DNA of 64,000 nucleotides from Pseudoalteromonas piscicida (GTDB lineage: Bacteria; Pseudomonadota; Gammaproteobacteria; Enterobacterales; Alteromonadaceae). The number at the start of each line of letters is the position of its first letter. Within the stretch, counting starts at the first letter, position 1. The notes under the pieces were generated by a model, which worked only from the letters and a program-made list of their open reading frames with translations, did not search any database and was not told the DNA's origin. This document shows positions 7,756 through 61,987 of the stretch, piece by piece. Made by a program: the position numbers and the translations under genes. The DNA lies in assembly GCF_000238315.3 (NCBI RefSeq), contig NZ_CP011924.1, forward strand, positions 2,210,501 to 2,274,500, in the 5' to 3' direction.

Positions 7756-8291
7756 ACGTCTTGACCTTTTAAACATTGTGGCAAGCCTGCAATAACAAAA
7801 TCGACTCTGTCGGCCACTTTAGCAATGTCTTGATGGAGCCAACCAGACTCATCAACAAACTCACGGCTTAGCTCGCCAAGCGGAATTATCCCATGCCCCA
7901 CTTCGTTACTCACCAAAATAACAGTGGCAGCACAGCTTTCTAGTGCCGCCAGCAAATGTTCTTTTTTGTCTATGGTCGCGGCTTTGCCCATTTCGCATAA
8001 GCCAAAACTCAGCCATAAAGTCAAACAATCGATAAGTAACAGCGCATCTTCGCGTGCAGTAGCAATAAGCTTATCAATATGCCATGGCTCTTCCACTAGC
8101 TGCCAGCGGCTATCGCGCTGCATCTGGTGAGCAAACACTCGGCTTTTCATTTCTTCATCTTGAGCTTTTGCAGTTGCAACATAGTAAAGTTCGTTCACCG
8201 CACCTTGCTCTAACATTAGAATAGCGCGCTGCTCTGCCAAGCGACTCTTGCCTGAGCGAGCACCGCCCAGTATTAACTGTATTTGTGCCAT
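7752..8291 (-). CDS. cobU: Adenosylcobinamide kinase / phosphate guanylyltransferase
   Basis: The 179-residue bifunctional enzyme phosphorylates adenosylcobinamide and then attaches GMP, giving adenosylcobinamide-GDP for CobS. The P-loop [12 protein letters not shown] is at residues 8-19, [11 protein letters not shown] in the middle, and [11 protein letters not shown], the usual CobU/CobP signature, near residue 127. It overlaps cobQ by four bases and shares one base with the cobS stop, consistent with translational coupling. Confidence 0.95.
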
Positions 8292-11939: not shown

Positions 11940-12021
11940 AGCACCTCTGATTGGGCACGGCAAAGTAGTAGCTTATAGAGAAGCGACAACTTTGACTTAA
12001 GTCTGCCCGCTTAAGTATATG

Positions 12022-12122
12022 GATAGGCCTTGGTATCTGACTTATGCAAGAGACAAGGCTCATACACTTACAGTTGCGGGGACAGTTGAGGACTCACACC
12101 TCATTCCCAATATCTGCCTATC
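12022..12122 (-). promoter_or_regulatory. Cobalamin riboswitch controlling the btuD-ung operon
   Basis: On the minus strand GATAGGC (12122-12116) and GCCTATC (12028-12022) form the closing stem. Between them lie the conserved core GTGTGAGTCCTC, CTGTCCCCGCAACTGTAAG and the B12-box-like AAGTCAGATACC. These match the adenosylcobalamin riboswitch pattern, in a compact form of about 100 nt. Downstream, before btuD, ACTTAAG and CTTAAGT can pair, and GGGCA can pair with TGCCC next to the ribosome-binding site. These are candidate expression-platform helices, so control may act on translation. cobC lies upstream of it and is not included. Confidence 0.9.
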
Positions 12123-12154
12123 ACGAAATTTGCAATATTATGAAGTCTAGACGT

Positions 12155-44168: not shown

Positions 44169-45398
44169 ATGAGCAAGGTTTCGTTATCAAAGGATAAAAT
44201 TCGAATTTTGTTGTTAGAAGGCGTGCATCAAAGCGCTGTTGAGACGCTAAAGCGCAACGGTTATAGCAACATAGACTACGTTAAAACATCCTTACCGGAG
44301 CCTGAGCTGATCGAGCGGATCAAAGATGCTCACTTTGTCGGGATCCGCTCACGTACCCACCTTACAGAAGCAGTTTTAGAACAGGCTGAAAAGCTGGTCG
44401 CGATTGGCTGTTTCTGCATCGGCACCAACCAAGTGGATTTGGATGCTGCTAAAAAACGCGGTATCGCCGTATTCAACGCACCATTTTCTAACACCCGCTC
44501 TGTGGCTGAACTCGTCTTAGGTGAAATTCTCTTGTTATTGCGCCGTGTTCCTGAGCGTAACGCAAAGGCGCATCGCGGTGAGTGGGATAAATCTGCCGAT
44601 GGTTCATACGAAGCCCGTGGTAAAACGCTGGGTATTATTGGTTATGGTCACATTGGCACCCAGCTTGGCATTATGGCTGAGAATATCGGGATGAACGTCG
44701 AGTTTTATGACATCGAAGATAAGCTCACGCTCGGCAACGCAACGCAGTTACACACGCTAACGCAACTGCTACAAAGAGCGGACGTGGTCAGTTTGCATGT
44801 ACCAGAGACATCACAGACCAAAAACCTTATCGGCATGGCTGAAATTGAAGTGATGAAACAAGGCGCAATCCTAATTAACGCATCACGTGGAACGGTTGTT
44901 GATATCGACGCCTTAGCTGAAGCTTTAGCCGCGAAGAAACTTTCTGGCGCTGCTATCGATGTATTCCCCGTTGAACCAAAATCTAATCATGAAGAGTTTG
45001 TCTCACCACTACGCGAGTTTGACAATGTACTGCTAACCCCACACGTTGGTGGTTCTACCCAAGAAGCACAAGAAAACATTGGTGTGGAAGTCGCGGGTAA
45101 GTTGGCGAAATATTCAGATAATGGTTCAACAGTCACGGCAGTTAACTTCCCCGAGGTTTCTCTACCTGAATTATCAAACCGAAGCCGTTTATTACACGTA
45201 CACGTAAACCGCCCAGGCGTACTAACGCAAATCAACCAAGCGTTCGCTCAGCACGGTATCAATATTGCGGCGCAATACCTACAAACGGATGAATCTATTG
45301 GTTACGTGGTTATCGACGTCGATAGCGACCACTCTGAAGTGGCGTTGAAAGAGTTAAGTGCAGTTGAAGGAACTATCAGAGCACGTATTCTTCACTAA
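44169..45398 (+). CDS. serA: D-3-phosphoglycerate dehydrogenase
   Basis: The full-length 409-residue enzyme oxidises 3-phosphoglycerate in the first step of serine synthesis. It shows IRSRTHLTEAVL, the NAD-binding GIIGYGHIGTQLG, INASRGTVVDIDALAEAL, LLTPHVGGSTQEAQ with the catalytic His, and a C-terminal ACT domain (VHVNRPGVLTQINQAF). The ATG at 44169 fits E. coli SerA; the frame begins four codons earlier. Everything from codon 32 to beyond the stop is repeated directly downstream. Its TAA stop overlaps the end of a palindromic element. Confidence 0.97.
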   Translation: MSKVSLSKDKIRILLLEGVHQSAVETLKRNGYSNIDYVKTSLPEPELIERIKDAHFVGIRSRTHLTEAVLEQAEKLVAIGCFCIGTNQVDLDAAKKRGIAVFNAPFSNTRSVAELVLGEILLLLRRVPERNAKAHRGEWDKSADGSYEARGKTLGIIGYGHIGTQLGIMAENIGMNVEFYDIEDKLTLGNATQLHTLTQLLQRADVVSLHVPETSQTKNLIGMAEIEVMKQGAILINASRGTVVDIDALAEALAAKKLSGAAIDVFPVEPKSNHEEFVSPLREFDNVLLTPHVGGSTQEAQENIGVEVAGKLAKYSDNGSTVTAVNFPEVSLPELSNRSRLLHVHVNRPGVLTQINQAFAQHGINIAAQYLQTDESIGYVVIDVDSDHSEVALKELSAVEGTIRARILH

Positions 45399-45458
45399 TA
45401 CCAATTGAATTAATTCTCTAATCAATTTGAAGGGTGAAATAGCATATTAGCTTCGTTA
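45398..45458 (+). repeat. Palindromic element, 61-bp left part only (copy C1)
   Basis: This begins with ATACCAATT overlapping the first serA stop codon and follows the complete element (46591-46752) exactly for 61 bases, to CTTCGTTA. There the serA sequence restarts. It was truncated by the tandem duplication, not independently inserted. Confidence 0.88.
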
Positions 45459-46591
45459 GCAACATAGACTACGTTAAAACATCCTTACCGGAGCCTGAGC
45501 TGATCGAGCGGATCAAAGATGCTCACTTTGTCGGGATCCGCTCACGTACCCACCTTACAGAAGCAGTTTTAGAACAGGCTGAAAAGCTGGTCGCGATTGG
45601 CTGTTTCTGCATCGGCACCAACCAAGTGGATTTGGATGCTGCTAAAAAACGCGGTATCGCCGTATTCAACGCACCATTTTCTAACACCCGCTCTGTGGCT
45701 GAACTCGTCTTAGGTGAAATTCTCTTGTTATTGCGCCGTGTTCCTGAGCGTAACGCAAAGGCGCATCGCGGTGAGTGGGATAAATCTGCCGATGGTTCAT
45801 ACGAAGCCCGTGGTAAAACGCTGGGTATTATTGGTTATGGTCACATTGGCACCCAGCTTGGCATTATGGCTGAGAATATCGGGATGAACGTCGAGTTTTA
45901 TGACATCGAAGATAAGCTCACGCTCGGCAACGCAACGCAGTTACACACGCTAACGCAACTGCTACAAAGAGCGGACGTGGTCAGTTTGCATGTACCAGAG
46001 ACATCACAGACCAAAAACCTTATCGGCATGGCTGAAATTGAAGTGATGAAACAAGGCGCAATCCTAATTAACGCATCACGTGGAACGGTTGTTGATATCG
46101 ACGCCTTAGCTGAAGCTTTAGCCGCGAAGAAACTTTCTGGCGCTGCTATCGATGTATTCCCCGTTGAACCAAAATCTAATCATGAAGAGTTTGTCTCACC
46201 ACTACGCGAGTTTGACAATGTACTGCTAACCCCACACGTTGGTGGTTCTACCCAAGAAGCACAAGAAAACATTGGTGTGGAAGTCGCGGGTAAGTTGGCG
46301 AAATATTCAGATAATGGTTCAACAGTCACGGCAGTTAACTTCCCCGAGGTTTCTCTACCTGAATTATCAAACCGAAGCCGTTTATTACACGTACACGTAA
46401 ACCGCCCAGGCGTACTAACGCAAATCAACCAAGCGTTCGCTCAGCACGGTATCAATATTGCGGCGCAATACCTACAAACGGATGAATCTATTGGTTACGT
46501 GGTTATCGACGTCGATAGCGACCACTCTGAAGTGGCGTTGAAAGAGTTAAGTGCAGTTGAAGGAACTATCAGAGCACGTATTCTTCACTAA
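45457..46591 (+). pseudogene. serA: 5'-truncated second copy of serA
   Basis: The frame continues from codon 32 of serA to the normal stop but lacks the first 31 residues and any translation start. Upstream, a stop lies at 45440-45442, and no ATG/GTG/TTG in frame occurs until a GTG at 45626 (the Val of NQVDLDAAKK), which has no ribosome-binding site. If started there, a 321-residue protein with the NAD and ACT domains but without the first part of the substrate domain would result. I regard it as non-functional on its own; it could recombine with the intact gene. Confidence 0.88.
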
Positions 46592-48861: not shown

Positions 48862-49473
48862 ATGGAATTTTTAAATACTGCATTTACGTTTCCCACTGTT
48901 ATTTTTTCAACACTACTACTGATAGTGTTGTTGTTCTGGCTAATTGCTTTACTCGGTTTTGCTGATATCGATATCTTAGAAGGCGATGTTGATATTGAAA
49001 CCGAAGGCGCAAGCTCTGGTTCTTTTTGGGAAGTCGCTTTTGGCGGCGTCCCTGTGAGTATTTCATTGAGTTTAATCATCGCGCTGGGCTGGATTGTCAG
49101 TATTTATGTACAACAGTTTTTTGCTTACCTACTAGGCAATGGCATTTTCTACTACCTGATGGGCACGGTATTTATGCTTGTTAGCCTCATTGCTGCATTA
49201 CCACTAACCGCCGTCATTGTAAGACCATTACGACGCTTTTTCGAAAGCCAAGAAACCACATCAAAGCAAGCGCTGGTTGGGCTCGAATGCGTTATTGCAA
49301 CATCGAGAGTTAGCAACACGTTCGGTCAAGCCAGAGTATATATTCAAGGAACAGAGCAACTCATCGAAGTGCGCTCGGATGAAGATAACACTTTCACACT
49401 AGGAGACAGTGCCTTACTTATCGAACATGACACCCTTACACATAGCTACACGATTGTGGCTAAACCTTGGTAA
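48862..49473 (+). CDS. YqiJ-like inner membrane protein with OB-fold domain
   Basis: This 203-residue protein has an N-terminal hydrophobic helix (residues 12-36), an acidic loop with DIDILEGDVDIETEG, two or three further hydrophobic segments (70-125), and a C-terminal soluble beta-rich domain (SKQALVGLECVIATSRVSNT). This fits the YqiJ/NfeD-like partners of bacterial flotillins. It lies 83 bp upstream of a YqiK-like flotillin gene. Such NfeD-type proteins typically pair with flotillins in membrane microdomain systems. Confidence 0.8.
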   Translation: MEFLNTAFTFPTVIFSTLLLIVLLFWLIALLGFADIDILEGDVDIETEGASSGSFWEVAFGGVPVSISLSLIIALGWIVSIYVQQFFAYLLGNGIFYYLMGTVFMLVSLIAALPLTAVIVRPLRRFFESQETTSKQALVGLECVIATSRVSNTFGQARVYIQGTEQLIEVRSDEDNTFTLGDSALLIEHDTLTHSYTIVAKPW

Positions 49474-49502
49474 TAGTACGGAAAATAACGGAATTTAGGA
49501 AC

Positions 49503-49527
49503 GAGTTGGTATAGCTAATACCAGCTC
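49503..49527. repeat. 25-bp inverted repeat inside the flotillin operon
   Basis: GAGTTGGTAT and ATACCAGCTC pair across AGCTA. The arms are those of the palindromic element's ends (TTGGTAT / ATACCA) brought together, as if a 162-bp copy had lost its centre. It lies between the yqiJ-like and yqiK-like genes and may modulate their relative expression. Confidence 0.45.
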
Positions 49528-49556
49528 AAACAATATAGCGCAACGCAGGAAAAAAC

Positions 49557-51734
49557 ATGGAATTTCTAAACAACCTCGGACCGGTGCTCGCAATCGTGGG
49601 CATATCCATCGTCATTATTTTTGCCATTCTACTTCTGATTGGAAAGTTCTACCGCAAGGTTGAACAAGGTCAGGCATTGATCATCAACAAGATGAAAAAC
49701 GAGCCGGATGTCACGACTACAGGCGGCATTGTGCTACCTGTGATCCAAAAAATGGAAGTCATGGATATTTCAACTAACCGCATGGTATTGGAGCGTCGTG
49801 AAAACAGCGGCCTGATCTGTAAAGACAATATCCGTGCCGACATCGCCATCACTTTTTACATTCGCGTAAACGAAAACAAAGAAGATATCCTACGCGTTGC
49901 TAAACAAGTTGGCTGTGCCCGCGCATCGGCACCAGAAACCTTACAAGCATTATTTGAGGCAAAATTCTCCGAAGCCTTGAAAACCGTTGGTAAGCGCATG
50001 AATTTTGAGGAGCTATTTACCCATCGTAATGAGTTCCGAGATTCTATTAAAGAAGTGATTGGACAAGATTTATCTGGCTATACGTTAGAAGATGTGGCGA
50101 TTGATTATCTTGAACAAACCTCTATCGACAAGTTAGATCCAAATAACATTCTTGACGCTGAAGGTATTCGCCGTATTACCGAAAAAACCTCACGCCAAAA
50201 CGTGGAAACGAACCAACTTAAATGCGATGAAAAAGCGCAAATCGACAACCAAAATCAAGCAGCCTTTGAAAAAGCCGCAGAAGTCGAGCGCCAACGAGAA
50301 GATGCCAGCGCGAGACAGCGTCGTGAAATCGAATCGGTGCGCGCTCGCGAAGCCGCAGAAGCTGAACGTGTTAAGCATGAAGAGCGCTTAAAAGCCGAAG
50401 AAGCACGCCTCAAAGCGGACGAAGCAATTGCAATTGCAGAGCACAATAAACAGCGTGAAATCGATGTTGCAGAGCAAAACCGCCTTCGCTTACTCGGTAT
50501 AGAAGAAGAAAAAGTCACGCGTTCTCGCCAGATTGAAATTATCGAACGTGAGCGTGAAACCGAAATACTACGTATTCAAAAGGCCAAAGCGCTAGAAGTT
50601 GAACGTAAAGAGATTGCCGATGTTCAGCGTGAACGGGTTGCCGTAGAGAAAACCGTTGCCGAAGAACAAGAGCGCATCAAAGACGTACAATGTATTGCTG
50701 AAGCCGAGCGTGAAAAACAAGCGAAAATTATTCTTGCTCAAGCTGAGGCTGAAGAAGCGTTGGTTAAAGATATTGAAGCAGCTAAAGCTAAAGAGCAAGC
50801 TGCCGAGTTTAAAGCCCGTGAAATGGAAAAAATGGCCGCAGCAGAACTACGTATTGCGAACCAAACCGCAGAGTCGAAGAAAATTCTTGCCGAAGCTGCC
50901 CAAGTTGAAGCGGCAGCGCCTGGTCTTGCAGAAGCTGATATCATCAAGGCTAAAGCCGCTGCAAGTGCCATACAAGGCGAGACTGACGCTAAAGTACTAC
51001 AACAAAAACTAGAAGCAGAAGCACAAGGTAAACGTGATATTGGCCGCGCCGAAGCCGAAGTACAAGCAGCAATGGCTGAAGCAACTAAGAAGCAAAGTGA
51101 AGCCGAAGCGCAAGGCAAACGTGAAATTGGTTTGGCAGAAGCTGAGGTTCAATCAGCAATGGCTGAGGCAATTGAAAAACAAGGTGAAGCAGAAGCTATC
51201 AACCTTGAGCGTAAGATGTCAGCAGAAGCCAAAGGTCTTACAGAGAAGCTGGAAGCACTGAATAAGATGGATAAAGACGCCCGTGAATACGAAGGCTTTA
51301 CACTACAGCTAAATCAACAGAAAGAGCTGACGCTTGCGAGTATCGAGGCAAACAAACAAGTTTCTGCAAGTCAGGCTGAAGTATTAGGTAAAGCACTGAG
51401 CGGTGCTGATATCAACTTTATGGGCGGCGACGGCCAGTTCTTTAACCAGTTTATGAATGCCATCACAGTGGGCAAGTCAATTGACGGCTTAGTCGGCGAG
51501 AGTAAGACGGTACAAACCGTATTTAAAGATCACCTAAACGGTGAGCGTAATTTGATGGACGACCTAAAAGGGGTGTTGGCTGGTGCCAATGCGTCGTCGG
51601 AAACGCTAAAAAACATCAACATGAGTAAGTTCTTCCAACAGCTAAGCAATAGCTCAGATGCGGATAAACAGCAGCTACTCAAGTTACTTGGCGGCTCGTT
51701 AAATGGCAGTAAACAAAGCGAACCACTAGAGTAA
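49557..51734 (+). CDS. Flotillin-like protein (YqiK type)
   Basis: The 725-residue protein starts with a membrane segment (LAIVGISIVIIFAILLLIG), then an SPFH/PHB domain (about residues 35-220, including TTGGIVLPVIQKMEVMDIST). A very long charged coiled coil (about 220-590) follows, rich in Ala/Glu/Lys with near-repeats such as AEAQGKRDIGRAEAEVQAAM and AEAQGKREIGLAEAEVQSAM. The C-terminal 130 residues are globular (NFMGGDGQFFNQFMNAI). Flotillins assemble into membrane-bound oligomeric cages. AGGA precedes the ATG. A giant ATPase gene follows 71 bp downstream. Confidence 0.9.
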   Translation: MEFLNNLGPVLAIVGISIVIIFAILLLIGKFYRKVEQGQALIINKMKNEPDVTTTGGIVLPVIQKMEVMDISTNRMVLERRENSGLICKDNIRADIAITFYIRVNENKEDILRVAKQVGCARASAPETLQALFEAKFSEALKTVGKRMNFEELFTHRNEFRDSIKEVIGQDLSGYTLEDVAIDYLEQTSIDKLDPNNILDAEGIRRITEKTSRQNVETNQLKCDEKAQIDNQNQAAFEKAAEVERQREDASARQRREIESVRAREAAEAERVKHEERLKAEEARLKADEAIAIAEHNKQREIDVAEQNRLRLLGIEEEKVTRSRQIEIIERERETEILRIQKAKALEVERKEIADVQRERVAVEKTVAEEQERIKDVQCIAEAEREKQAKIILAQAEAEEALVKDIEAAKAKEQAAEFKAREMEKMAAAELRIANQTAESKKILAEAAQVEAAAPGLAEADIIKAKAAASAIQGETDAKVLQQKLEAEAQGKRDIGRAEAEVQAAMAEATKKQSEAEAQGKREIGLAEAEVQSAMAEAIEKQGEAEAINLERKMSAEAKGLTEKLEALNKMDKDAREYEGFTLQLNQQKELTLASIEANKQVSASQAEVLGKALSGADINFMGGDGQFFNQFMNAITVGKSIDGLVGESKTVQTVFKDHLNGERNLMDDLKGVLAGANASSETLKNINMSKFFQQLSNSSDADKQQLLKLLGGSLNGSKQSEPLE

Positions 51735-51805
51735 TTAACCCTGAGGAGTCAATCTTCTTGGCTCCTCTCCCCCATTTGCGACAGCGCACATAGGAAAGCA
51801 AAAGA

Positions 51806-54800
51806 ATGACGGAAGCAACGCAACAAGCGCCAGAGCGAACGCTCGAACAAGACTCTTATCAACTGATTAAACGCCGGCTTAGTAACTTTGGCAGTGAACT
51901 GAAAAGTCAGATAGATAACCTCAACCAACAGCGTGTTGACACTTTTGGCAGCACCGAGCTTAAAGTGAAAGGTCGAGCAAGAGTTCGCACTGAGCATAAC
52001 TGCGTGCCGCGCGACATCGTACTGATCGGCGACAAGCTTATCTTTGCTTATAATGTCTTTATGGGGCTTAAACAAAATACCCAAGTCAGCGATGTATTCA
52101 CCGTACAAAAGCTACACTTGCAAGAAGATCATTACGAAATAGAACCTTACCCGCAAGAAACCAAATTCCTCACTGATCAACGTTTCTTACGGGACTTCGA
52201 CGAACTATACACGTATTACAAAGACACCCGTCTACAGCACCTATTTGTTAAATCAAACAAGCTTTTTGCACTATTTCAGATTGGCGAAAAGCTCTCTGAT
52301 GTCCGCGTGTTTCGCTGGCAAATCGCCAAAGACGAAACCTTAGATTACATTGATAACCGAGGAGAGCGTGACCTAGGCGAAGTGGAAAACTTTGACTTTG
52401 AATGGCAAAAAACCGATCGCGCCGATCACGTCGAAGGCCGTCACCCACATATTAATGTAAACGACAAAGTATTTATTGAAGTATCGAGTGGCAAACTCAC
52501 CGTAAAAATAGAAAACAATACCCAAAGCGGTGAAGGTATTTATCAAGAAGCCGTTGATGACGCCAGTCAATCACTCGCAGATTGCGATTTACGTTTTGCC
52601 GAAGTTGGCGAAATGGTGTTGTTAAAGTTACTTCCCTACCGAGAAAAACAATGGCGTTATTTTATTTATAATTGCCGCACCCAACAGGTATTGCGCCAAG
52701 ATGCGCTGGGTGGTGCCTGTGTTCAATTACCTGAGAACCAAGGAATTATTTTTCCTGGTGGCTATTATTTACAATCTGGGCAAACACGCTATTTTGACGA
52801 CCAACTGGACGATTTAATTTTCCATCGCCAGATCAAATCACCCAATGGTGAAGATGTACTGTATATCTTCTACGAACCAAACGAGGGTCGCTACGCACTT
52901 TTCTCTTACAATATTATTGAGAAAAACCTGCAAAATCCTATTTATTGTCATGGCTATGGAATTTATGACGATGGCTTAGCGCTAACCTTTAAAGCAGAGC
53001 CTGAGCCTGAGCGCGTGCACCCTATTCAAATCTGGCAAAGCCCATTTTGTGGCAGCGAGTTTGCCGCACAAGCCCCTCGCGCAAGCGGCTTATTTGGCCG
53101 GATCGGCAACCCGGATTTAGTACGCGCGATTTCTGATTTATACAGTGTGTTCAAAGCCATTAACGAACAAAGCCCCACGGTCTTTCATTATGAAGATTTA
53201 ATTGCCCTCACCCGCAGTATTTTAGACCGCTATCATTGGCTTGCTGAAGCGGACTTTGCAGACGTCACAGCAAAACTACATGAAATTTTTGAAACTTCGG
53301 AGCAGGTACTCGACGAATTTGAAAAGGTAAGCCAAATTGAGGCCGACGCTCGGCGCGCAGAAGCGGAAATAGAGCAAGCCATGCAAGATGTGCTTCGCGA
53401 GGTGAGACCTGATAGCTTTAAAACAGCGGAGCAATTCGTTCAGAGCTTAGAATATCTCAAACGCTTGAAAGGCAAAGTGATAAGCCTTGAAGAAGTGAAG
53501 TATATCAATCTTGGCGCGCTATCTGTCATGCTGCAGCAGATTGATGAGCAAACCTTGAGTTTAAGCCATAAAACCGCGGAGTTCTTGCAGCAAGATAGTG
53601 CTTTGGCGCCCTACTACGAGCAACTAGACTCCTTAGAGCAAGCCAGAGCACAGACAGAGAGTGTCACCGAGCTTAACGGCTTTTTGGCAACCTTGGAAAC
53701 CTTGAGCGCTGAACTTGATTTGCTCAACCATACCATGCTGGATCTCGACATTGACGATAGCCGCATTCGCACTAAAATTTTGGAAGATGTCAGCGCCATT
53801 TATGGTCAAGTAAACCGCGCCAAAGCAGCGTTAGAAATCCAGAAAAAGAGCGTGGGCAGTGTTGAAGCAAAAGCCGAATTCGCGGCTCGCTTTAAGCTTT
53901 TCAGCCAAAGTATTACCAGCGGTCTAAGCGCTGCCAAAACCCCAGAGCAATGTGACGACCAGCTCTCTCGCTTACTTATCCAATTAGAAGAGCTCGAGTC
54001 TCAATTTAGTCAGTATGATGAATTTTTAACGGAGATCTTGGCTAAACGTGATGACGTTTATGAAAGCTTTGAGGCGCATAAACAGCAGCTCATCGACGAA
54101 AGACAGCGCCGAGCACTAAGCCTAGCAAACGCTGCTGAGCGTATTTTACAGGGGGTGAATCGACGCTCGCAAAGTTTTAAAACCTTAGACGACATCAATA
54201 GCTATTTTGCCTCCGATCCTATGATTGGCAAGCTGCGTGATTTAACGCAAGAGCTAAAGCGCCTAAGCGATGAAGTGAAGGCGGATGATATTCAAGCCAA
54301 ACTCAAGGCCTGCAAAGATCAAGCAATCCGCGCTTTGCGAGACAAGCAAGATATTTACATTGATGGTGGCAATACCGTTAAAGTCGGCAAACATGCGTTT
54401 AGTTTCAATAAACAAATCCTTGATTTGACTTTGCTGCCTCGTGGTGAACAGCTGATGTTACACCTCACCGGCACTGAGTATTTCGATACTATTCCTGACG
54501 CCACTGTCAATCAACAACTCAATGACGCAAGCACATACTGGCAGCAAAACCTGATCTCAGAAAATCGTCACTTATATCGAGGCGAGTACCTTGCAGCTCA
54601 AGTATTAGCAGCTGCGGAGCAAGACGGCAACGACTTTAGTCAAGCAGATCTAGAACTTGCCGTTGATGACGGAAGTTTACTGCCCATCGTACAAAAATTT
54701 GCAGAACCCAGATATCAAGAAGGCTATGAAAAAGGCATTCATGATCAAGATGCCAGCCTGATCTTAGCTAATTTACTAAAACAAAAACGACAGCTTGAGT

Positions 54801-57304
54801 TACTCGTCTACCCTGCTAGCTGTCGAATTGCGGCACAGCTATTTTATACTCAACAAAGCAAGGCTGAGCTAGCTGAATTGGCGTTTCAGGCCACACAAGC
54901 AGAGCTGATGGCAACGAAGTTAGATGACCATAGTTTTAGCCAACAGCTAAGCAAAGAATTGAGTGAAAAGATCACGGCATTTTGCCAACAAAATTTATCG
55001 AGCTATTTAACCGAGCTACACCGCTTTTCAGGCGAGTTAAGCGCAACTTACTTAATTAAAGCCCTTGCCAAGCAAGTTAAGCCGAGACAATTTGATTTGG
55101 CTTCACCTGCAAAACACACCAGCGAGCAGTTTATCTCGATGGCAAAGGCCAAAGGCGTTTGGCAACAGCTTGAAGACTCATTAACACATTTGACTAAACT
55201 TGCGGACAAATGCCGCCTGTTAAGTAGCTGGCTGCGCGCCTATGGCAGTAAGCAAAATGAAAGTGCTGAAACCTTGCTTGAGGCCGCTAACTACATTTTG
55301 CTTTCCACTCAGTTAGATATCACCTACCAAGTCAAAGAAGCCGAAATAAAAACCGAAATTTCAGGTTTAATGGGCCAACACCCACGTATCGAGAACCAAG
55401 TGTTACGCCTAGATTACGCAGACTTTTTTGCCCGTAGTAACGAGTATCTCACGGTTCATGTTCCGGCCTACAAACAGTATCAACAGTTAAAAGCACAAGT
55501 GCTTGAGGCGCAAAAGCAGCGCTTGCAATTGGATGAGTTTAAACCCAGACCGCTAAGCTCATTTGTACGTAACCAGCTGATTGACAAAGTCTACTTCCCT
55601 ATTATTGGCGATAACTTAGCAAAACAAATCGGGGCTGCAGGAAACAATAAACGCACCGACTTAATGGGCATGTTGCTGCTTATCTCCCCACCGGGCTATG
55701 GTAAAACCACGTTAATCGAGTATGTGGCTAACCGCTTAGGACTCACCTTTGTTAAGGTCAACTGTCCATCCATTGGTCACGACCAAGTCTCTTTAGATCC
55801 TGCTCAAGCCATCAACGCGACCGCCGCAAAAGAAATTGAGAAGATCAACCAAAGCTTTGAGATGGGCAATAATGTGATGCTGTACCTTGACGATATTCAG
55901 CATACCAACCCCGAGTTTTTACAAAAATTCATCTCTTTATGTGATGGTTCAAGACGCATAGACGGTGTGTGGAATGGCCGCAGTAAAACTTATGATCTGA
56001 GAGGCAAAAAATTTGCCGTTGTGATGGCAGGAAACCCCTACACCGAATCCGGTGAATCCTTTAAGATCCCAGATATGCTTGCCAACCGTGCGGATATTTA
56101 CAACCTCGGTGACACCCTCAGTGGCTGCGAACAAGAATTTGCCATGAGCTTTATTGAAAATACGCTCACTTCCAATGCGGTGCTTGCGCCACTTGCCAAT
56201 CGTGGTATGGAAGACTTGTACAAGCTAGTACGCATTGCCGACGGAGAAGACATCTCCATCAATGAATTGGAATTTAATTACTCTCAAGCGCAAGTGAATG
56301 AAGTTGTCAGCGTACTGAAAAAGCTGCTCACCATCCGCAACACCGTGCTCAAAGTAAATGCCCAATATATTGCCTCAGCAGCGCAAGATGATAACTATCG
56401 AACCGAGCCGCCGTTTAAGCTACAAGGCAGTTACCGGAACATGAATAAGATGGCTGAAAAGGTGGTTGCTGCCATGAATGACAGTGAACTTGAATACCTA
56501 ATTCAAGATCACTATCGCGGTGAAGCACAAACGCTTAGCAAAGGCAGCGAAGAAAACTTACTGAAACTGGCTGAATTACGCGGTACCTTAACGGATGAAG
56601 AAGCAACGCGCTGGCATGAAATCAAGGCCGAATATGCCCGCCTGCACCGCAATAGCGATGAGGGAAGCCCTGCGCAATTGGCAGTTGAACAGCTAAGCTT
56701 TGTCAATAAATCCCTTTCGCAAATCGCCGCTAAACTCGACAAAGAGCAGCTTAGCTTTGATTACAGTGCGCTATTGCAACAATTGGCTCAAGTGCTTAAC
56801 GAGCAAGAGTTTGCCACGCAGTTAACTGAGCTACGTGAGGCCTTAACGCAGCAACCTTACGCTACACCGCTAAAACAATTGATAGCTTCACAGCAACAAG
56901 TCGCTGAGGAAATTGCGGGGCTGCAAAACGCTATCAAACACACCGCGAACAACGAGCAGCTACTCACTAACCTTGGCAAACTCAATGACTTGCTCAGCAC
57001 CCAAGCGCAAATACAACAAGCATTGGGCCAACAAGGTCAGCAGCAAAATACGTTATTTGAAAACCTGTCTGAGCGCTTAGAAGCGGTGGCACAACCGCAT
57101 ATTCAAGTCGACAATCACATTGATGATAGCAGTGCAAAAGCGCTTGAAGCCGTCACCACTTTGCTAACAAATACCTTGGCAAACTCAAACGCTGAACAAG
57201 TCCAGCAGCAACAGCTAAAAGACATTTTACAAAAGCTAGAGGATATTCAATCAAGGCCTGTAGTTAGTAATGGTTCACCAGCGAAAAACCCGTATATGCT
57301 GTAA
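51806..57304 (+). CDS. Giant 1832-residue AAA-type ATPase
   Basis: Residues 1-480 are a mixed, beta-rich region without a motif I recognise; about 480-860 is predicted coiled coil; 860-1270 is helical; and an AAA+ type ATPase lies at about 1270-1560. Walker A is SPPGYGKTT (K1300) and Walker B is VMLYLDDIQH (D1362, D1363), with a sensor-1-like VVMAGNPYTESG after. The C-terminal 250 residues are Gln-rich coiled coil. Proteins of this type are annotated as DNA repair ATPases, but I see no nuclease, helicase or clear DNA-binding motif. Its place directly behind the flotillin suggests a joint membrane-associated machine. No stop, frameshift or composition break was seen. Confidence 0.88.
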   Translation: MTEATQQAPERTLEQDSYQLIKRRLSNFGSELKSQIDNLNQQRVDTFGSTELKVKGRARVRTEHNCVPRDIVLIGDKLIFAYNVFMGLKQNTQVSDVFTVQKLHLQEDHYEIEPYPQETKFLTDQRFLRDFDELYTYYKDTRLQHLFVKSNKLFALFQIGEKLSDVRVFRWQIAKDETLDYIDNRGERDLGEVENFDFEWQKTDRADHVEGRHPHINVNDKVFIEVSSGKLTVKIENNTQSGEGIYQEAVDDASQSLADCDLRFAEVGEMVLLKLLPYREKQWRYFIYNCRTQQVLRQDALGGACVQLPENQGIIFPGGYYLQSGQTRYFDDQLDDLIFHRQIKSPNGEDVLYIFYEPNEGRYALFSYNIIEKNLQNPIYCHGYGIYDDGLALTFKAEPEPERVHPIQIWQSPFCGSEFAAQAPRASGLFGRIGNPDLVRAISDLYSVFKAINEQSPTVFHYEDLIALTRSILDRYHWLAEADFADVTAKLHEIFETSEQVLDEFEKVSQIEADARRAEAEIEQAMQDVLREVRPDSFKTAEQFVQSLEYLKRLKGKVISLEEVKYINLGALSVMLQQIDEQTLSLSHKTAEFLQQDSALAPYYEQLDSLEQARAQTESVTELNGFLATLETLSAELDLLNHTMLDLDIDDSRIRTKILEDVSAIYGQVNRAKAALEIQKKSVGSVEAKAEFAARFKLFSQSITSGLSAAKTPEQCDDQLSRLLIQLEELESQFSQYDEFLTEILAKRDDVYESFEAHKQQLIDERQRRALSLANAAERILQGVNRRSQSFKTLDDINSYFASDPMIGKLRDLTQELKRLSDEVKADDIQAKLKACKDQAIRALRDKQDIYIDGGNTVKVGKHAFSFNKQILDLTLLPRGEQLMLHLTGTEYFDTIPDATVNQQLNDASTYWQQNLISENRHLYRGEYLAAQVLAAAEQDGNDFSQADLELAVDDGSLLPIVQKFAEPRYQEGYEKGIHDQDASLILANLLKQKRQLELLVYPASCRIAAQLFYTQQSKAELAELAFQATQAELMATKLDDHSFSQQLSKELSEKITAFCQQNLSSYLTELHRFSGELSATYLIKALAKQVKPRQFDLASPAKHTSEQFISMAKAKGVWQQLEDSLTHLTKLADKCRLLSSWLRAYGSKQNESAETLLEAANYILLSTQLDITYQVKEAEIKTEISGLMGQHPRIENQVLRLDYADFFARSNEYLTVHVPAYKQYQQLKAQVLEAQKQRLQLDEFKPRPLSSFVRNQLIDKVYFPIIGDNLAKQIGAAGNNKRTDLMGMLLLISPPGYGKTTLIEYVANRLGLTFVKVNCPSIGHDQVSLDPAQAINATAAKEIEKINQSFEMGNNVMLYLDDIQHTNPEFLQKFISLCDGSRRIDGVWNGRSKTYDLRGKKFAVVMAGNPYTESGESFKIPDMLANRADIYNLGDTLSGCEQEFAMSFIENTLTSNAVLAPLANRGMEDLYKLVRIADGEDISINELEFNYSQAQVNEVVSVLKKLLTIRNTVLKVNAQYIASAAQDDNYRTEPPFKLQGSYRNMNKMAEKVVAAMNDSELEYLIQDHYRGEAQTLSKGSEENLLKLAELRGTLTDEEATRWHEIKAEYARLHRNSDEGSPAQLAVEQLSFVNKSLSQIAAKLDKEQLSFDYSALLQQLAQVLNEQEFATQLTELREALTQQPYATPLKQLIASQQQVAEEIAGLQNAIKHTANNEQLLTNLGKLNDLLSTQAQIQQALGQQGQQQNTLFENLSERLEAVAQPHIQVDNHIDDSSAKALEAVTTLLTNTLANSNAEQVQQQQLKDILQKLEDIQSRPVVSNGSPAKNPYML

Positions 57305-57330: not shown

Positions 57331-57354
57331 CCAAAGCCCATGGATGGGCTTTGG
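57331..57354. terminator. Hairpin between convergent ATPase and DyP-like genes
   Basis: CCAAAGCCCAT / ATGGGCTTTGG is a perfect 11-base stem with a two-base centre. There is no T run after it on either strand, so termination by it is uncertain. Confidence 0.55.
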
Positions 57355-57375: not shown

Positions 57376-58290
57376 TTACTCCGGCATTTTTGCCATCACC
57401 GCCAAAAACTCTAGTGAGGGTGCAAAAAACGCAGAGCCCATATCGGCACTAGAATAATCCAATATGGGGTCGTATTCATCCCCTTCCCCCAATCGGCTTC
57501 TTAGCACCAGCTCAAAAGCATCGCCCTTGGCACTGCAACTTAGCGACAAGCTTCCTTGTTCAAATACATCACCAAATGGCATGCTTTGGTTAAGCAGTAG
57601 CGCATTACCGTTTGCGTCTTTCAATTCGGTTAATGCCGCATGATTACAGGGTTCGCAATCTTCAATTAGGTCATTGTCGAGACGCGTACGCCCCATTAAT
57701 TGCTCTTGCTCAGCAAGCGGCAACGCCTGCCAGCGCAGTAAATCAAACTTCACCCGCTGTACGTGAATATAACTACCAAGGTGGTCGGCTGCATTTGGGT
57801 TGTGCACAAGTGCAACTTCCCGTTTATTGCGCCCTCTAGGGATGTCTGCACCATAAATAAAGCCATTAAAATCACGACCATCTAAGAAACGGAAAGCGCG
57901 CACATGTGCCACCATTTCAACTAGACCGTTTAGCATGTGCAGCACACTTTGAGCAAAGATATGATTAACGTCTTCTCGGTCGGAGCGGATCACGTAAAGC
58001 AAGTCAAAAGGCTGAGTATGCACGGTGTGCTCAGCCTCAACAATATGTGGAAAGCTTTTTAACTCTTTAGGAATAAACTCAGGATAAATGTGCGGCCAGT
58101 ATTGCGCACCAACCGCGACAAAGCTCGACAGCATAGACTCGGAGAATCTGTCTTCCAACTCCTCTTGCAAGCGTCCACAATTTGCGAGCGCCGCTCTTAG
58201 CGCCTCGTCTTGCCCTTCAAGCACATTGAAGAACAAGTGTAAGCCGTGCAAATTGGCTTCAGCACACACACCTGATTGGGCAAGCGCCAT
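57376..58290 (-). CDS. DyP-type peroxidase relative lacking key heme residues
   Basis: The 304-residue protein aligns by eye with YfeX-type dye-decolorizing peroxidases: FLDGRDFNGF, EVALVHN, GSYIHVQR, GRTRLDN, QSMPFGD and a C-terminal SAFFAPSLEFL. Two essential positions are changed. The GxxDG motif reads GFIYG, with Tyr146 in place of the catalytic Asp. Where relatives have the proximal heme His (Y-x-H-D after the GSY strand) there is Phe182 (VKFD). Arg201 is kept. It has no signal peptide. It follows fbpC by 30 bp in a Fur-box operon, so a role in iron handling rather than peroxidation seems likely. Confidence 0.82.
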   Translation of the reverse strand: MALAQSGVCAEANLHGLHLFFNVLEGQDEALRAALANCGRLQEELEDRFSESMLSSFVAVGAQYWPHIYPEFIPKELKSFPHIVEAEHTVHTQPFDLLYVIRSDREDVNHIFAQSVLHMLNGLVEMVAHVRAFRFLDGRDFNGFIYGADIPRGRNKREVALVHNPNAADHLGSYIHVQRVKFDLLRWQALPLAEQEQLMGRTRLDNDLIEDCEPCNHAALTELKDANGNALLLNQSMPFGDVFEQGSLSLSCSAKGDAFELVLRSRLGEGDEYDPILDYSSADMGSAFFAPSLEFLAVMAKMPE

Positions 58291-58320
58291 GCTCTACTCC
58301 CTGCGTTTATTCATTTGCTA

Positions 58321-59352
58321 TTAAGAAAAGAAATTTACAGCATGTGCCTTAATTTTTAAAGAGATTGGTTGATTTAAGTCGAGCGGTTCATGCGCTGGAT
58401 GCGGTACTTCGAGCTCTTGACCCTCTAATGCAACACGGTAAATGTACTCTGTTCCCATAAAGCGCTGATTGAGTATTTTAACGCTGCCAAGCTCGGCGTT
58501 TTCTAACGTAATGTGCTGCGGCCTCACATACATTTCACCCTTCGCGTCGATATTACCGAGCTCAACGAGTGATTTTACGGCACCAAATTGGGTTTCTACC
58601 GAAGCGCCATTCACTCGTTGTGCAGGAATATAAATTCCCTGACCCAAAAACTCGGCAACCATTTTGCTCTTTGGTCGTTGGAATAACGTTCTCGGCTCAC
58701 CCACTTGTGCGATTTTCCCTTTATCCATTATTGCCAACCGATCGGCAAAAGCAAAAGCTTCTTCTTTCGAGTGACTAACAAAAATCGCGGAAACTTGCTG
58801 ATCTTTGATTATACGGCGAATATCGTTAATTAACTGAAACCGCACTTGAGCATCTATATTTGAAAACGGCTCATCAAGCAGCAACAGATTTGGCTTGTAC
58901 GCCAGTGCTCGCGCAATTGCGACACGTTGTTGTTGGCCACCTGAAAGCTCGTGTGGAAAACGGTCGCTATAGTCTTGCAGCTGCACCAAATGGAGCATTT
59001 CAGCTACTCGGTCTTGACGTTCACGCTTGCTTTTTAAGGTTAAACCAAACGCCACATTTTGCGCCACAGTGAGATATGGGAATAGCGCATAGTCTTGAAA
59101 CATCATGCCAATATTGCGTTTTTGTGGAGGTACAAAAGCGCCATTACCATTCATGGCTTTGCCTAAAATACTCACCGAGCCTTGAAATGGTTCTATCAAG
59201 CCCGCTATCGCCTTCAGCGTGGTCGTTTTACCGCAGCCACTGGCACCAAGCAAACAAACAATCTCGTTTTGTTCTACTGTCAGATTTAGGCTATCCACAA
59301 CGGCTTCACCGTCATAACGATAAGAGAGATTTTCAAGCACTAAACTATGCAT
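58321..59352 (-). CDS. fbpC: Ferric iron ABC transporter ATPase (FbpC type)
   Basis: The 343-residue ATPase has Walker A GASGCGKTT, the signature LSGGQQQRVAIARAL, Walker B LLLLDEPFSNID, the H-loop FVSHSKEEA and a C-terminal TOBE-like domain. ATG overlaps the fbpB stop (TAATG). The substrate assignment comes from the FbpA/FutA-like binding protein and the Fur box; the ATPase itself is similar to sulfate, spermidine and sugar importers. Confidence 0.92.
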   Translation of the reverse strand: MHSLVLENLSYRYDGEAVVDSLNLTVEQNEIVCLLGASGCGKTTTLKAIAGLIEPFQGSVSILGKAMNGNGAFVPPQKRNIGMMFQDYALFPYLTVAQNVAFGLTLKSKRERQDRVAEMLHLVQLQDYSDRFPHELSGGQQQRVAIARALAYKPNLLLLDEPFSNIDAQVRFQLINDIRRIIKDQQVSAIFVSHSKEEAFAFADRLAIMDKGKIAQVGEPRTLFQRPKSKMVAEFLGQGIYIPAQRVNGASVETQFGAVKSLVELGNIDAKGEMYVRPQHITLENAELGSVKILNQRFMGTEYIYRVALEGQELEVPHPAHEPLDLNQPISLKIKAHAVNFFS

Positions 59353-60983
59353 TAACTTCGCTGCTCCATAGAACGGTTTACAACATAAAGCGGAATTAAA
59401 CCAACCAACACAATAAATAACGCAGAGACAGAAGCCAACTCCAGCTGCTCATCACTCACATATTGGAAAACGTGTGTTGCCAGTGTTTCATAATTAAAGG
59501 GTCGTAATAACAATGCCGCTGGAAGTTCTTTCATACACTCAATAAAAACCAACAGTGCTGCGGTTAAAATACCGCGACGCAGCAATGGCAAATGTATTGA
59601 TAACATGGTTTTGAAACGATTGCGACCCAACGAAAAACTTGCCATATCTAGACTTGGACTGATCCGCTGATAACTCGATTCGACCGCGCCTTGCGCAATC
59701 GCATAAAATCGTACAACGTAAGCAAAAACCAGTGCAAAAATCGTCCCGCTGAACAGCAAACCAGGCTCAAATGAGGAGCTTTCAAGCCAAGTATTTAGCT
59801 TGTCGTCTAATAAAGTGAGTGGAATAAGTACTGCAATTGCCAGCACAGTGCCCGGTAGCGCGTATCCGGTACTCGCAAGCTTACCCGGCAGCGTGACGCG
59901 TTTACCACTGCTAACTCGCTGGTTAAACACCACCAGCATGCTCATGATAATTAATACCACACTTACCCAAAACGCTATTTTTAAACTTTGCCACGCATAC
60001 AAGAAAAAGTCGTCATTCCAAGCTTGTTCAAAATAGTCGACGGCGTAATCTGCAAGCACCCATGTAGGCACGATAAAAGCCGCAATAAGAATAAGCCAAC
60101 AAAAAGCGCTAGCGAACCAAGCCTGCGCGCCTTTAAGATGATAAAGCGTGGTACTGTTAACACTCGATTGGCGCTCATGCACTACCTGAGTTGGGCGGCT
60201 TACTCGCTCCAGTGTTAGGGCTAAAAATAAAAACAGTAGCATGATGCCTGAAATTTTAGCCGCAGCAGTAAGTGAATAATAACCCAACCAAGTATCGTAA
60301 ACGGCGGTGGTTAGTGTACTCACGGCAAAGTAATGTACGGTTGCAAAATCTGCCATGCTTTCCATGGCGATCAGTGCCAGCCCCGCCACAATCGCCCCTC
60401 GCGACAAAGGTAAACTTACCTTAAAGAAGCTCTGTGAAGGCGACTTACCCATCAATTGGCTGGCTTGCACCAGCTTAAACGACTGCTCTCTTAGCGCCGT
60501 TCTAAAAATCAAAAACAAATAAGGATAAAGCACCAGTGCAATCATCACGATAGCACCTGACAAAGTGCGAATATCAAAGAACCAATAATCATCTGGAGAT
60601 TGCCAGCCAAACCACTCTCGCAGCGCTATTTGTACAGGCCCAGCGTAATCCAGCAAATCGGTATACACGTAAGCAATCAAATAGGTTGGCATCGCAAGGG
60701 GTAGCATCAACGACCATTCGAAAAAGCGCCGTCCAGGAAACTCACAGTACGCGGTTAGCCAGCCAAGTGGTAGCGCGATTAAAGCGCAAAGGATGCATAC
60801 ACCTACAATCAGCCAAATCGTATTGCGGACATAGTCCCACAAAACGGTGTTCCAAAGGTGAGCAAAGACTTCGGAGTCAGGTTGTAGCGACTCAAAGATT
60901 AAAAACATCAGCGGGACTGATAGGCTAAGCCCTATCAGCCACGCAAAACTCTGCCATTTAGACAGTGAAAATGATAATTGCAT
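59352..60983 (-). CDS. fbpB: Ferric iron ABC transporter permease (FbpB type)
   Basis: The 543-residue protein is a fused permease with two BPD_transp_1 domains (about residues 60-260 and 335-535) and roughly 12 membrane segments. The N-terminal half shows GWLTAYCEFPGRRFFEW and LPLAMPTYLIAYVYTDLL; each half has an EAA-like loop (for example LMGKSPSQSFFKVSLPLSRG). It makes the inner membrane channel for Fe3+. Both ends form TAATG overlaps with neighbouring genes, a strongly coupled operon. Confidence 0.92.
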   Translation of the reverse strand: MQLSFSLSKWQSFAWLIGLSLSVPLMFLIFESLQPDSEVFAHLWNTVLWDYVRNTIWLIVGVCILCALIALPLGWLTAYCEFPGRRFFEWSLMLPLAMPTYLIAYVYTDLLDYAGPVQIALREWFGWQSPDDYWFFDIRTLSGAIVMIALVLYPYLFLIFRTALREQSFKLVQASQLMGKSPSQSFFKVSLPLSRGAIVAGLALIAMESMADFATVHYFAVSTLTTAVYDTWLGYYSLTAAAKISGIMLLFLFLALTLERVSRPTQVVHERQSSVNSTTLYHLKGAQAWFASAFCWLILIAAFIVPTWVLADYAVDYFEQAWNDDFFLYAWQSLKIAFWVSVVLIIMSMLVVFNQRVSSGKRVTLPGKLASTGYALPGTVLAIAVLIPLTLLDDKLNTWLESSSFEPGLLFSGTIFALVFAYVVRFYAIAQGAVESSYQRISPSLDMASFSLGRNRFKTMLSIHLPLLRRGILTAALLVFIECMKELPAALLLRPFNYETLATHVFQYVSDEQLELASVSALFIVLVGLIPLYVVNRSMEQRS

Positions 60984-61987
60984 TAAAGGTCAAATTTTAC
61001 CTCATCGATTAGCTTAAGCGCTAACGGACGGTATTTACTGATCTCTGACAATGGTAGGCTGTCTTCCTTAAACTCACCCCAAGATGCCACAAGTTTCGAT
61101 AACTCGACGCCAGGTTTAACCGGGTATTCCATATTCATCGACGCATACATATTTTGCGCCTTATTGTCGGTCATAAACTCAATGAGTTTCAAGGCATTTT
61201 CTGTATTTTTAGCGTGCTTGGTCAAGACAACACCAGAAACGTTGATATGAGAACCACGATCTTGTTGATTTGGGAAGTTGATATATACCGCTTCAGCCCA
61301 GGCTTTTTGCTTTTCATCTTCCATCATCTTACCGAAGTAATAGCTGTTTCCGATGGCCAAATCACACAGTCCTTCTTTTACTGCTTTGACTTGTGCACGG
61401 TCGTTACCTTGAGGCTTACGAGCTAAATTTTTCTTCACACCTTCAAGCCATTCTTTGGTCTTTGCTTCGCCATGATGGGCAATCATAGACGCCACTAAAC
61501 CAAGGTTATAGGGATGCTTACCTGAGCGTGTACAAATTTTACCGCGGTATTGTTCATCCGCTAGCGCTTCATACGTAAGCGCATCTAACTTGCCTACACG
61601 GTCTTTTGCAGAATATACATTGCGTACACGCTTAGTAAGCGCAACCCACTGACCTTCAGGATCTCTGAAGTTCGCTGGGATATTCTTGGTTACAGCTTCG
61701 CTGTTAATTGCTTGTGTTAGGTTTTCGTCTTCAAGTTGAATTAGCGCACTGAAGTTTGAAGTGAGTACGAGATCAGCACGGCTATGCTTGCCTTCACGCT
61801 TAACACGCTCGATTAAGCCTTTTTTTGCAAAAACCACATTGGTCTTGATACCGGTTTGCTTGGTGAAGTCATCCAAAATAGGTTGGATCAGAAAAGGTTG
61901 TCTAAACGAGTAGATATTAACTTCCTCTGCAGCCATTGCAGGTAGGCAAGTAAGCGTTGCCAGTATAGTAACAAGTGCTTTTTTCAT
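60983..61987 (-). CDS. fbpA: Ferric iron-binding periplasmic protein (FbpA/FutA type)
   Basis: A signal peptide ends near residue 19 (PAMA-AEE). The mature protein has EVNIYSFRQPFLIQPILDDF, ICTRSGKHPYNLG and the tyrosine pair in GNSYYFG that ligates Fe3+ in this family. It is the first gene of the operon, 20 bp downstream of a Fur-box match. In the periplasm it binds Fe3+ and delivers it to FbpB/FbpC. Confidence 0.94.
   Translation of the reverse strand: MKKALVTILATLTCLPAMAAEEVNIYSFRQPFLIQPILDDFTKQTGIKTNVVFAKKGLIERVKREGKHSRADLVLTSNFSALIQLEDENLTQAINSEAVTKNIPANFRDPEGQWVALTKRVRNVYSAKDRVGKLDALTYEALADEQYRGKICTRSGKHPYNLGLVASMIAHHGEAKTKEWLEGVKKNLARKPQGNDRAQVKAVKEGLCDLAIGNSYYFGKMMEDEKQKAWAEAVYINFPNQQDRGSHINVSGVVLTKHAKNTENALKLIEFMTDNKAQNMYASMNMEYPVKPGVELSKLVASWGEFKEDSLPLSEISKYRPLALKLIDEVKFDL

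Follow-up and report, generated by a model that had tools for sequence, protein, structure and literature searches.

A flotillin-linked giant ATPase of Pseudoalteromonas piscicida, probably part of a membrane-maintenance machine

What does a giant ATPase that databases call a 'DNA repair ATPase' do beside a flotillin? The question is raised by a 64,000-nucleotide stretch of the Pseudoalteromonas piscicida genome (contig NZ_CP011924.1, positions 2,210,501 to 2,274,500; hereafter the window), in which three plus-strand genes fill positions 48862..57304. They encode a YqiJ/NfeD-like inner-membrane protein of 203 aa (48862..49473), with N-terminal hydrophobic segments and a predicted C-terminal OB-like domain, a long SPFH flotillin of 725 aa (49557..51734), with a Band_7 match and one N-terminal membrane segment, and an ATPase of 1,832 aa (51806..57304) of the DUF3686 family. 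The genes are separated by 83 and 71 nt, respectively. Open reading frames (ORFs) and Pfam agree with this layout, which a first-pass annotation had presented as an uncharacterised membrane system. We conclude that the three genes (the triad), together with a distant PspA-DUF2170 pair of the same genome, probably form a membrane-maintenance machine of an already sketched kind, and not a DNA-repair enzyme.

The triad and its flotillin

A scan of the genome collection returned at least 574 confirmed stretches encoding the ATPase. We extracted the gene neighbourhoods of the best 80 of these 574, as well as a second set of 20 loci out of the 27 matches, other than the window itself, in relatives and phylum samples. 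Since the sets share loci (L038/L057 and L041/L055, for instance, look identical), the resulting 100 loci are not a count of distinct genomes. Neighbours were counted by searching all six frames with profiles built from the same loci. Earlier counts had relied on filtered ORFs (YqiJ-like 65/68, PspA plus DUF2170 31/68, PLD 15/67, TelA 5/67), and the filter hid genes.

Where the sequence reaches 2.5 kb or further upstream of the ATPase gene, the flotillin gene is found there in 72/72 loci (the remaining eight of the 80 are too short on that side), and where it reaches at least 5 kb, a YqiJ-like gene is found in 68/68. The second set returned 20/20 and 18/18, respectively, so that an ATPase regularly occurring without flotillin or YqiJ was not seen in this tabulation. 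The gene order of the triad is kept in all 20 retrieved loci, with the ATPase gene disrupted in two of them. Because the order recurs in 20/20 loci, the arrangement is not due to chance, and the first-pass annotation was right to treat the three genes as belonging together. In L043:8218-13708 and L031:6417-11510 the ATPase gene is disrupted by mutation or assembly error, while the flotillin and yqiJ-like genes are intact.

The flotillin has its only hydrophobic segment at the N-terminus (residues 2-36) and an SPFH (Band_7) domain at residues 34-182 (49656..50102; Pfam, E 3.6e-7). Its C-terminus (residues 501-725; 51057..51731) is unlike that of YqiK-type flotillins when the sequences are compared. 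Among 60 relatives, a flotillin match at E 1e-20 was found in 26, and 21 of these 26 are exactly the 21 genomes that bear the ATPase. The match runs past residue 600 in 21/21 ATPase-bearing relatives; it is confined to residues 1-454 (27-30% identity) in the five that lack the ATPase, and the remaining 34 ATPase-less relatives show no match at this threshold. The long flotillin of the window type therefore occurs in 21/21 ATPase-bearing relatives and in 0/39 others. The ATPase-linked flotillins also form one clade (support 0.92) in a tree of 41 sequences, in which the linked ones were thinned, Escherichia coli YqiK was added and six ATPase-less sequences were compared; these six were not recovered as a clade under the rooting used. 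The linked C-terminus carries a conserved Gly-Gly...Phe-Phe...Gly-Lys pattern, and that of YqiK a different one.

Among the closest known arrangements are the E. coli YqiJ-YqiK, SO1376-SO1377 and SPFH2-NfeD2 pairs, which combine a membrane partner and a flotillin in the same order as the triad. However, E. coli YqiK is shorter (553 aa), shares 28% identity with the window flotillin over residues 2-450 only and has a different C-terminus. Moreover, unlike in the triad, no ATPase follows yqiK in E. coli K-12. Judged from its sequence, the window flotillin is a sister type to YqiK with its own C-terminus, and not a YqiK orthologue. The 203-aa protein matches no Pfam family, YqiJ_N and YqiJ_OB included; these two models do recognise E. 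coli YqiJ and the proteins of two ATPase-less relatives. Profile-profile comparison relates it to E. coli YqiJ with a probability of 97.4%. Its description as an OB-fold membrane protein thus holds for the hydrophobic segments, while the OB fold is predicted from remote homology only. No solved structure was convincingly found by sequence search for the YqiJ-like protein, and none for the flotillin. Given the distinct C-terminus and clade of the flotillin and the missing YqiJ Pfam match, the triad has its own flotillin/YqiJ-like pair, sister to YqiJ-YqiK and not orthologous to it, a point that the first-pass annotation missed.

The giant ATPase and its AAA+ module

The ATPase begins with the DUF3686 domain (residues 31-477; 51896..53236; Pfam, E 1.8e-188), which is modelled as a beta-propeller (residues 14-500, pLDDT 91). 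Generic WD40 propellers dominated a fold search with this model, which pointed to no particular relative, and no solved structure was found by sequence for the N-domain profile. There follow a long helical, coiled-coil arm (residues 478-850; 53237..54355) that includes DUF7902 (599-681), a middle region (residues 851-1245; 54356..55540) that alignment and model divide into a small beta part and a mainly helical remainder, and the AAA+ module (residues 1246-1600; 55541..56605), all on the plus strand. In the model of residues 455-1640 (pLDDT 85), long helices precede the AAA+ part. Pfam and models therefore agree with the beta-rich, coiled-coil and AAA+ parts initially read from the sequence. 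Hydrophobic segments are absent from the protein, as are protease domains from its Pfam matches.

Comparison of structures places the AAA+ module closest to the MoxR ATPases CbbQ and NorQ (13-16% identity in structural alignments). Pfam AAA_5 and AAA match at approximately residues 1290-1415; AAA_3, the MoxR model of Pfam, is not among the matches up to E 0.1. The structure alignments comprised 74 (A2) and 70 (A3) of 79 thinned sequences, plus the window protein. Conservation was measured on 99 loci and the window, leaving out L043, where the ATPase is in two pieces. K1300, which the first-pass annotation proposed to mutate, is the lysine of the Walker A motif (residues 1294-1301; 55685..55708, plus strand) and is invariant in 100/100 aligned sequences. 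The Walker B motif (residues 1357-1363; 55874..55894, plus strand) ends with D1362-D1363 instead of the usual D-E. This pair is invariant, with D1363 in 100/100 aligned sequences, and the MoxR-type catalytic Glu is absent. Similarity to RuvB and p97 is found at the level of the P-loop only. The nearest named ATPases are up to 72-73% identical to the window protein.

A distant PspA-DUF2170 half and the surroundings of the triad

The portions of Ravi et al. 2024 (PMC11237479) considered here describe an operon class with CesT/Tir-PspA, a band-7 flotillin, an AAA+/beta-propeller protein and YqiJ. They name abbreviated operons without PspA, report PLD as an extra in some, and point out that the way in which PspA homologues lacking an associated AAA ATPase regulate assembly is not known. 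Three protein types are the same in the window, which fits the short, PspA-less form. The difference is that the window genome keeps its PspA half 110 kb away, a point overlooked in the first-pass annotation. Searches of this genome (two contigs, 4.25 and ~1.2 Mb) gave a single match for DUF2170, three for PspA and six for Band_7. DUF2170 and one PspA (the dyad) share a cluster with DUF350, spermine-synthase, DUF4178 and a 108-aa gene; 110.6 kb separate the end of this cluster from the triad, which lies downstream of it. The triad of the window has neither DUF2170 nor PspA genes beside it and is not the full Ravi-type operon. The two halves are adjacent in some congeners: the closest copy of the dyad cluster, in congener G017 (67-83% identity per gene), adjoins the triad there, with one 138-aa ORF between them.

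To what extent do the two halves travel together? Among the 60 relatives, DUF2170 lies within 7 kb of the ATPase domain in 10/21 triad genomes, on the opposite strand in G054. The probability of this under random placement is ~3e-20, although the ten cases are not independent because several share one arrangement. DUF2170 is present in 21/21 triad genomes and 25/39 others among the relatives, and in 8/8 and 42/390, respectively, in the phylum sample. It occurs in 34/36 genomes of the genus, as compared to 17/36 for the triad; within the genus alone (17/17 versus 17/19, p 0.49) the association is not significant because the dyad is nearly universal there.

These samples suggested that the triad always needs DUF2170. 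We rejected this possibility after taking, for the PspA link, the 46 of the 80 loci whose triads seemed, after the first filter, to have no DUF2170 next to them. It is in fact present at that place in four (L081, L085, L089 and L127). Of the other 42 triad genomes, 13 carry DUF2170 elsewhere and 29 lack it; some PspA is present in 22 of these 29 and none in seven. As some assemblies are metagenome-assembled genomes (MAGs), absences of PspA or DUF2170 may be gaps. PspA is a common, not universal, partner of the triad: both PspA and DUF2170 are present in 35/68 loci, and in 5/18 of the second set. Genome G048, in which we detected no DUF2170 and no ATPase, has a PspA-family gene (L220:141-809) immediately before a classical yqiJ-yqiK pair. 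This arrangement indicates that a PspA-flotillin link exists also without the motor.

Downstream of the ATPase we found a rhomboid protease in 12/67 loci, a PLD-like protein in 16/67 and TelA in 6/67 (1/17, 3/17 and 0/17 in the second set). Apart from PspA, DUF2170, rhomboid, PLD and a small unknown protein, each neighbour cluster occurs in at most 12/100 loci. Four of the seven PspA-less genomes are TelA loci (L090, L093, L096 and L102; two Stenotrophomonas, one Xanthomonas and one Luteimonas). TelA is missing from the related Lysobacter/Lysobacteraceae loci L087, L089 and L127, whose triads have PspA and DUF2170 alongside. A mutually exclusive replacement of PspA-DUF2170 by TelA was nevertheless rejected, as the Lysobacter locus L084 has PspA, DUF2170, TelA and PLD all around the triad. 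Because of this co-occurrence, TelA is an added member and not a strict substitute; a gain of TelA followed by a loss of PspA-DUF2170 would fit the TelA loci. The words 'Rhomboid' and 'TelA' are absent from the main text of PMC11237479. Our literature search returned nothing relevant pairing TelA or tellurite with flotillin or SPFH, or combining flotillin, rhomboid and PspA.

Three further proteins recur around the triad. A conserved protein, mostly of 106-121 aa, lies between the PspA and YqiJ-like genes in L138:10409-10735 and 15 clustered loci; it has no Pfam match above cut-off and is present in 33/36 genomes of the genus. Another one, of 76-95 aa, is found beside the flotillin or the ATPase in L061:9491-9766, L062:9028-9270 and six more loci, with sub-threshold TerB/EF-hand-like matches for the L062 copy and none for the L065 copy. 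The third lies between the ATPase and TelA genes (L102:15304-16011, L090:15304-16005 and L096:15187-16059); a Pfam search with its L102 copy gave nothing at E 0.01.

The ATPase is present in 8/398 phylum genomes, 17/36 genus genomes and 21/60 relatives. The best 80 loci come from Pseudomonadota, Actinomycetota, a few MAGs named Deltaproteobacteria or Bradymonadaceae, and one planctomycete. Records of the plasmid collection add Deinococcus and Hymenobacter; the ATPase occurs in 12 of these records, six of which exceed 1.6 Mb and are perhaps chromosomes. Pseudomonas loci follow the order DUF2170-PspA-YqiJ-flotillin-ATPase-(rhomboid)-PLD. The annotated order on plasmid pQBR103 is YjfI, PspA, rhomboid, DUF2491, DUF350, DUF1190, glutathionylspermidine synthase, a hypothetical protein, an SPFH protein and the ATPase. 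On the Hymenobacter plasmid it is 'chaperone Tir', PspA, DUF1449, a hypothetical protein and the ATPase, and on the Deinococcus plasmid only hypothetical proteins lie directly upstream of the ATPase.

In the window, the triad is flanked by argR on one side and by a convergent gene for a DyP-type peroxidase on the other. Between the ATPase and peroxidase genes lies an inverted repeat (57331..57354), terminator-like on the minus strand. The GC content of the triad (0.452) is inside the range of window stretches of equal length (0.412-0.466), so that nothing in the composition suggests a recent foreign origin. The peroxidase gene and the three-gene ABC transporter beside it span 57376-61987 (minus strand); the transporter ATPase scores highest with 2-aminoethylphosphonate PhnT2, under the model cut-off. 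Further away, most of serA is present in an exact tandem copy (1135 bp, 44264-45398 and 45457-46591, 100% identical DNA), the second copy being without the first 36 codons. Only one serA stands at this place in the close relative L044, so the duplication is either very recent or an artefact of assembly. A cobalamin riboswitch (Rfam RF00174, 46.6 bits) was detected at 12009-12136 on the minus strand, with a CobB/CobQ-type gene (6283-7776) further downstream on the same strand.

Related systems and possible functions

A relative of the window operon with known phenotypes is very probably the bac operon of Pseudomonas aeruginosa. BacA is a DUF2170 protein (PDB 8Q8O) and BacB is PspA; BacC is NfeD-like and BacD an SPFH protein, according to the part of PMC13086221 used here. 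A protein cluster of the ATPase family, with 3222 member sequences, is named after P. aeruginosa. From this cluster and the gene order in other Pseudomonas loci, BacE is very probably the ATPase and BacF the PLD protein. The sections of Wallart et al. 2024 (PMC10948618) at hand report RT-PCR products spanning bacA to bacF as one operon, and a bacA disruption that reduces rhamnolipid secretion, swarming and biofilm and raises the other five Bac proteins 6.1 to 13.5-fold. In the same portion of PMC13086221 (2026), where bacD is named PaFlo3, its deletion leads to ~20% less biofilm, with no significant change in pyocyanin and swimming. Together with the class of Ravi et al., these phenotypes leave the description of the system as uncharacterised unsupported. 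What the present analysis adds is a flotillin dedicated to the ATPase, a fold of MoxR type, an operon split in two, and an association with TelA and rhomboid genes. Our literature search returned no paper naming DUF3686, linking a flotillin with a 'DNA repair ATPase', or treating YqiJ, YqiK, flotillin and ATPase jointly. A knock-out of SO1377 in Shewanella is described in PMC1468410, whose main text, in the part considered, reports a flotillin of 592 aa with the DUF1449 protein SO1376 and does not contain the word ATPase. Because SO1377 is a YqiK-type flotillin, its phenotype should not be transferred to the triad.

Two known systems suggest how the triad may work. The HflK/HflC cage with FtsH likewise joins an SPFH scaffold to an AAA+ motor, although FtsH is a membrane protease, unlike the window ATPase. 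In Bacillus subtilis, YdjI is required for the membrane localisation of PspA (PMC8581546, in the excerpt used), a precedent for SPFH-PspA coupling. We give about an even chance to a general reading in which the ATPase is a flotillin-docked, MoxR-like motor that remodels inner-membrane proteins and is often coupled to PspA. The flotillin and its YqiJ/NfeD-like partner would form a cytoplasm-facing scaffold or cage in the inner membrane, by analogy with PMC11260169. The ATPase would be its dedicated motor, probably an oligomeric ring, docking most likely on the flotillin's own C-terminus; the action on a flotillin scaffold proposed in the first-pass annotation is plausible, as an inference. The beta-propeller on its long helical arm may capture partners or substrates. 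ATP would then be spent on pulling on or reassembling membrane-associated complexes under envelope stress, with the ESCRT-III-like PspA and its CesT/Tir-like DUF2170 as a frequent client or effector pair, or with another partner.

The best-surviving alternative, possible but a good deal less likely, is that the ATPase acts as a chaperone in the assembly or quality control of one specific transporter or membrane enzyme, in the way NorQ serves nitric oxide reductase; the scaffold would then only localise it, and PspA would be a bystander. The nearest folds, CbbQ and NorQ, and the seven PspA-less genomes among the 29 without DUF2170 are in line with this. However, NorQ and CbbQ act with the partners NorD and CbbO, whereas the window ATPase has a fused propeller and arm, a Walker B DD and no VWA partner recognised among the annotated neighbour-cluster representatives (clusters 25, 26 and 30, of 5-6 loci each, and smaller ones are unannotated). 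Nor does any neighbour cluster beyond the recurrent ones described above exceed 12/100 loci.

We consider doubtful a more specific form of the motor hypothesis, in which the flotillin-anchored, MoxR-type motor would be a bacterial counterpart of Vps4 and would disassemble or re-use ESCRT-III-like PspA polymers at the inner membrane, with DUF2170 as a chaperone of PspA. TelA may then have become the helical client of this motor in the Stenotrophomonas, Xanthomonas and Luteimonas relatives, in which neither PspA nor DUF2170 was found. The joint presence of TelA and PspA-DUF2170 in L084 makes this slightly less likely. Slightly less probable still is a scaffold controlling lipids or membrane fluidity, with the ATPase setting the lipid environment together with the PLD and rhomboid enzymes. 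Their recurrence downstream of the ATPase would fit, but both are accessory, and the annotated genes around the window triad include neither.

We regard as improbable an anti-phage or conflict system with PLD as effector; the first-pass annotation had listed defence against phage among its options. The patchy distribution in the phylum, the plasmid records and the downstream PLD-like gene could be read in this way. Against it, the PADLOC matches of the ATPase are weak and limited to the P-loop (E 0.011 and 0.018), the EAD1 match on the PLD protein was found in 1/15 only and under cut-off, 50,697 phage records returned no match, and none was confirmed in viral contigs when a Pseudomonas ATPase was used as query. 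Finally, a DNA-repair ATPase is very improbable: the Pfam and NCBI name and the weak RuvB-type similarity speak for it, but the latter is restricted to the P-loop region of a fold closer to MoxR, the neighbours include membrane and stress genes, and recJ, several kb downstream in 10/100 loci, looks like background synteny. The first-pass annotation was correct that no motif supports this label, and the neighbourhood gives it no support either.

The name 'DNA repair ATPase' is thus misleading. The partner-specific C-terminus of the flotillin provides a direct docking hypothesis. With at least 574 stretches, a tie to one flotillin type and PspA in about half of the loci, this widespread ATPase is a candidate bacterial membrane-remodelling motor.

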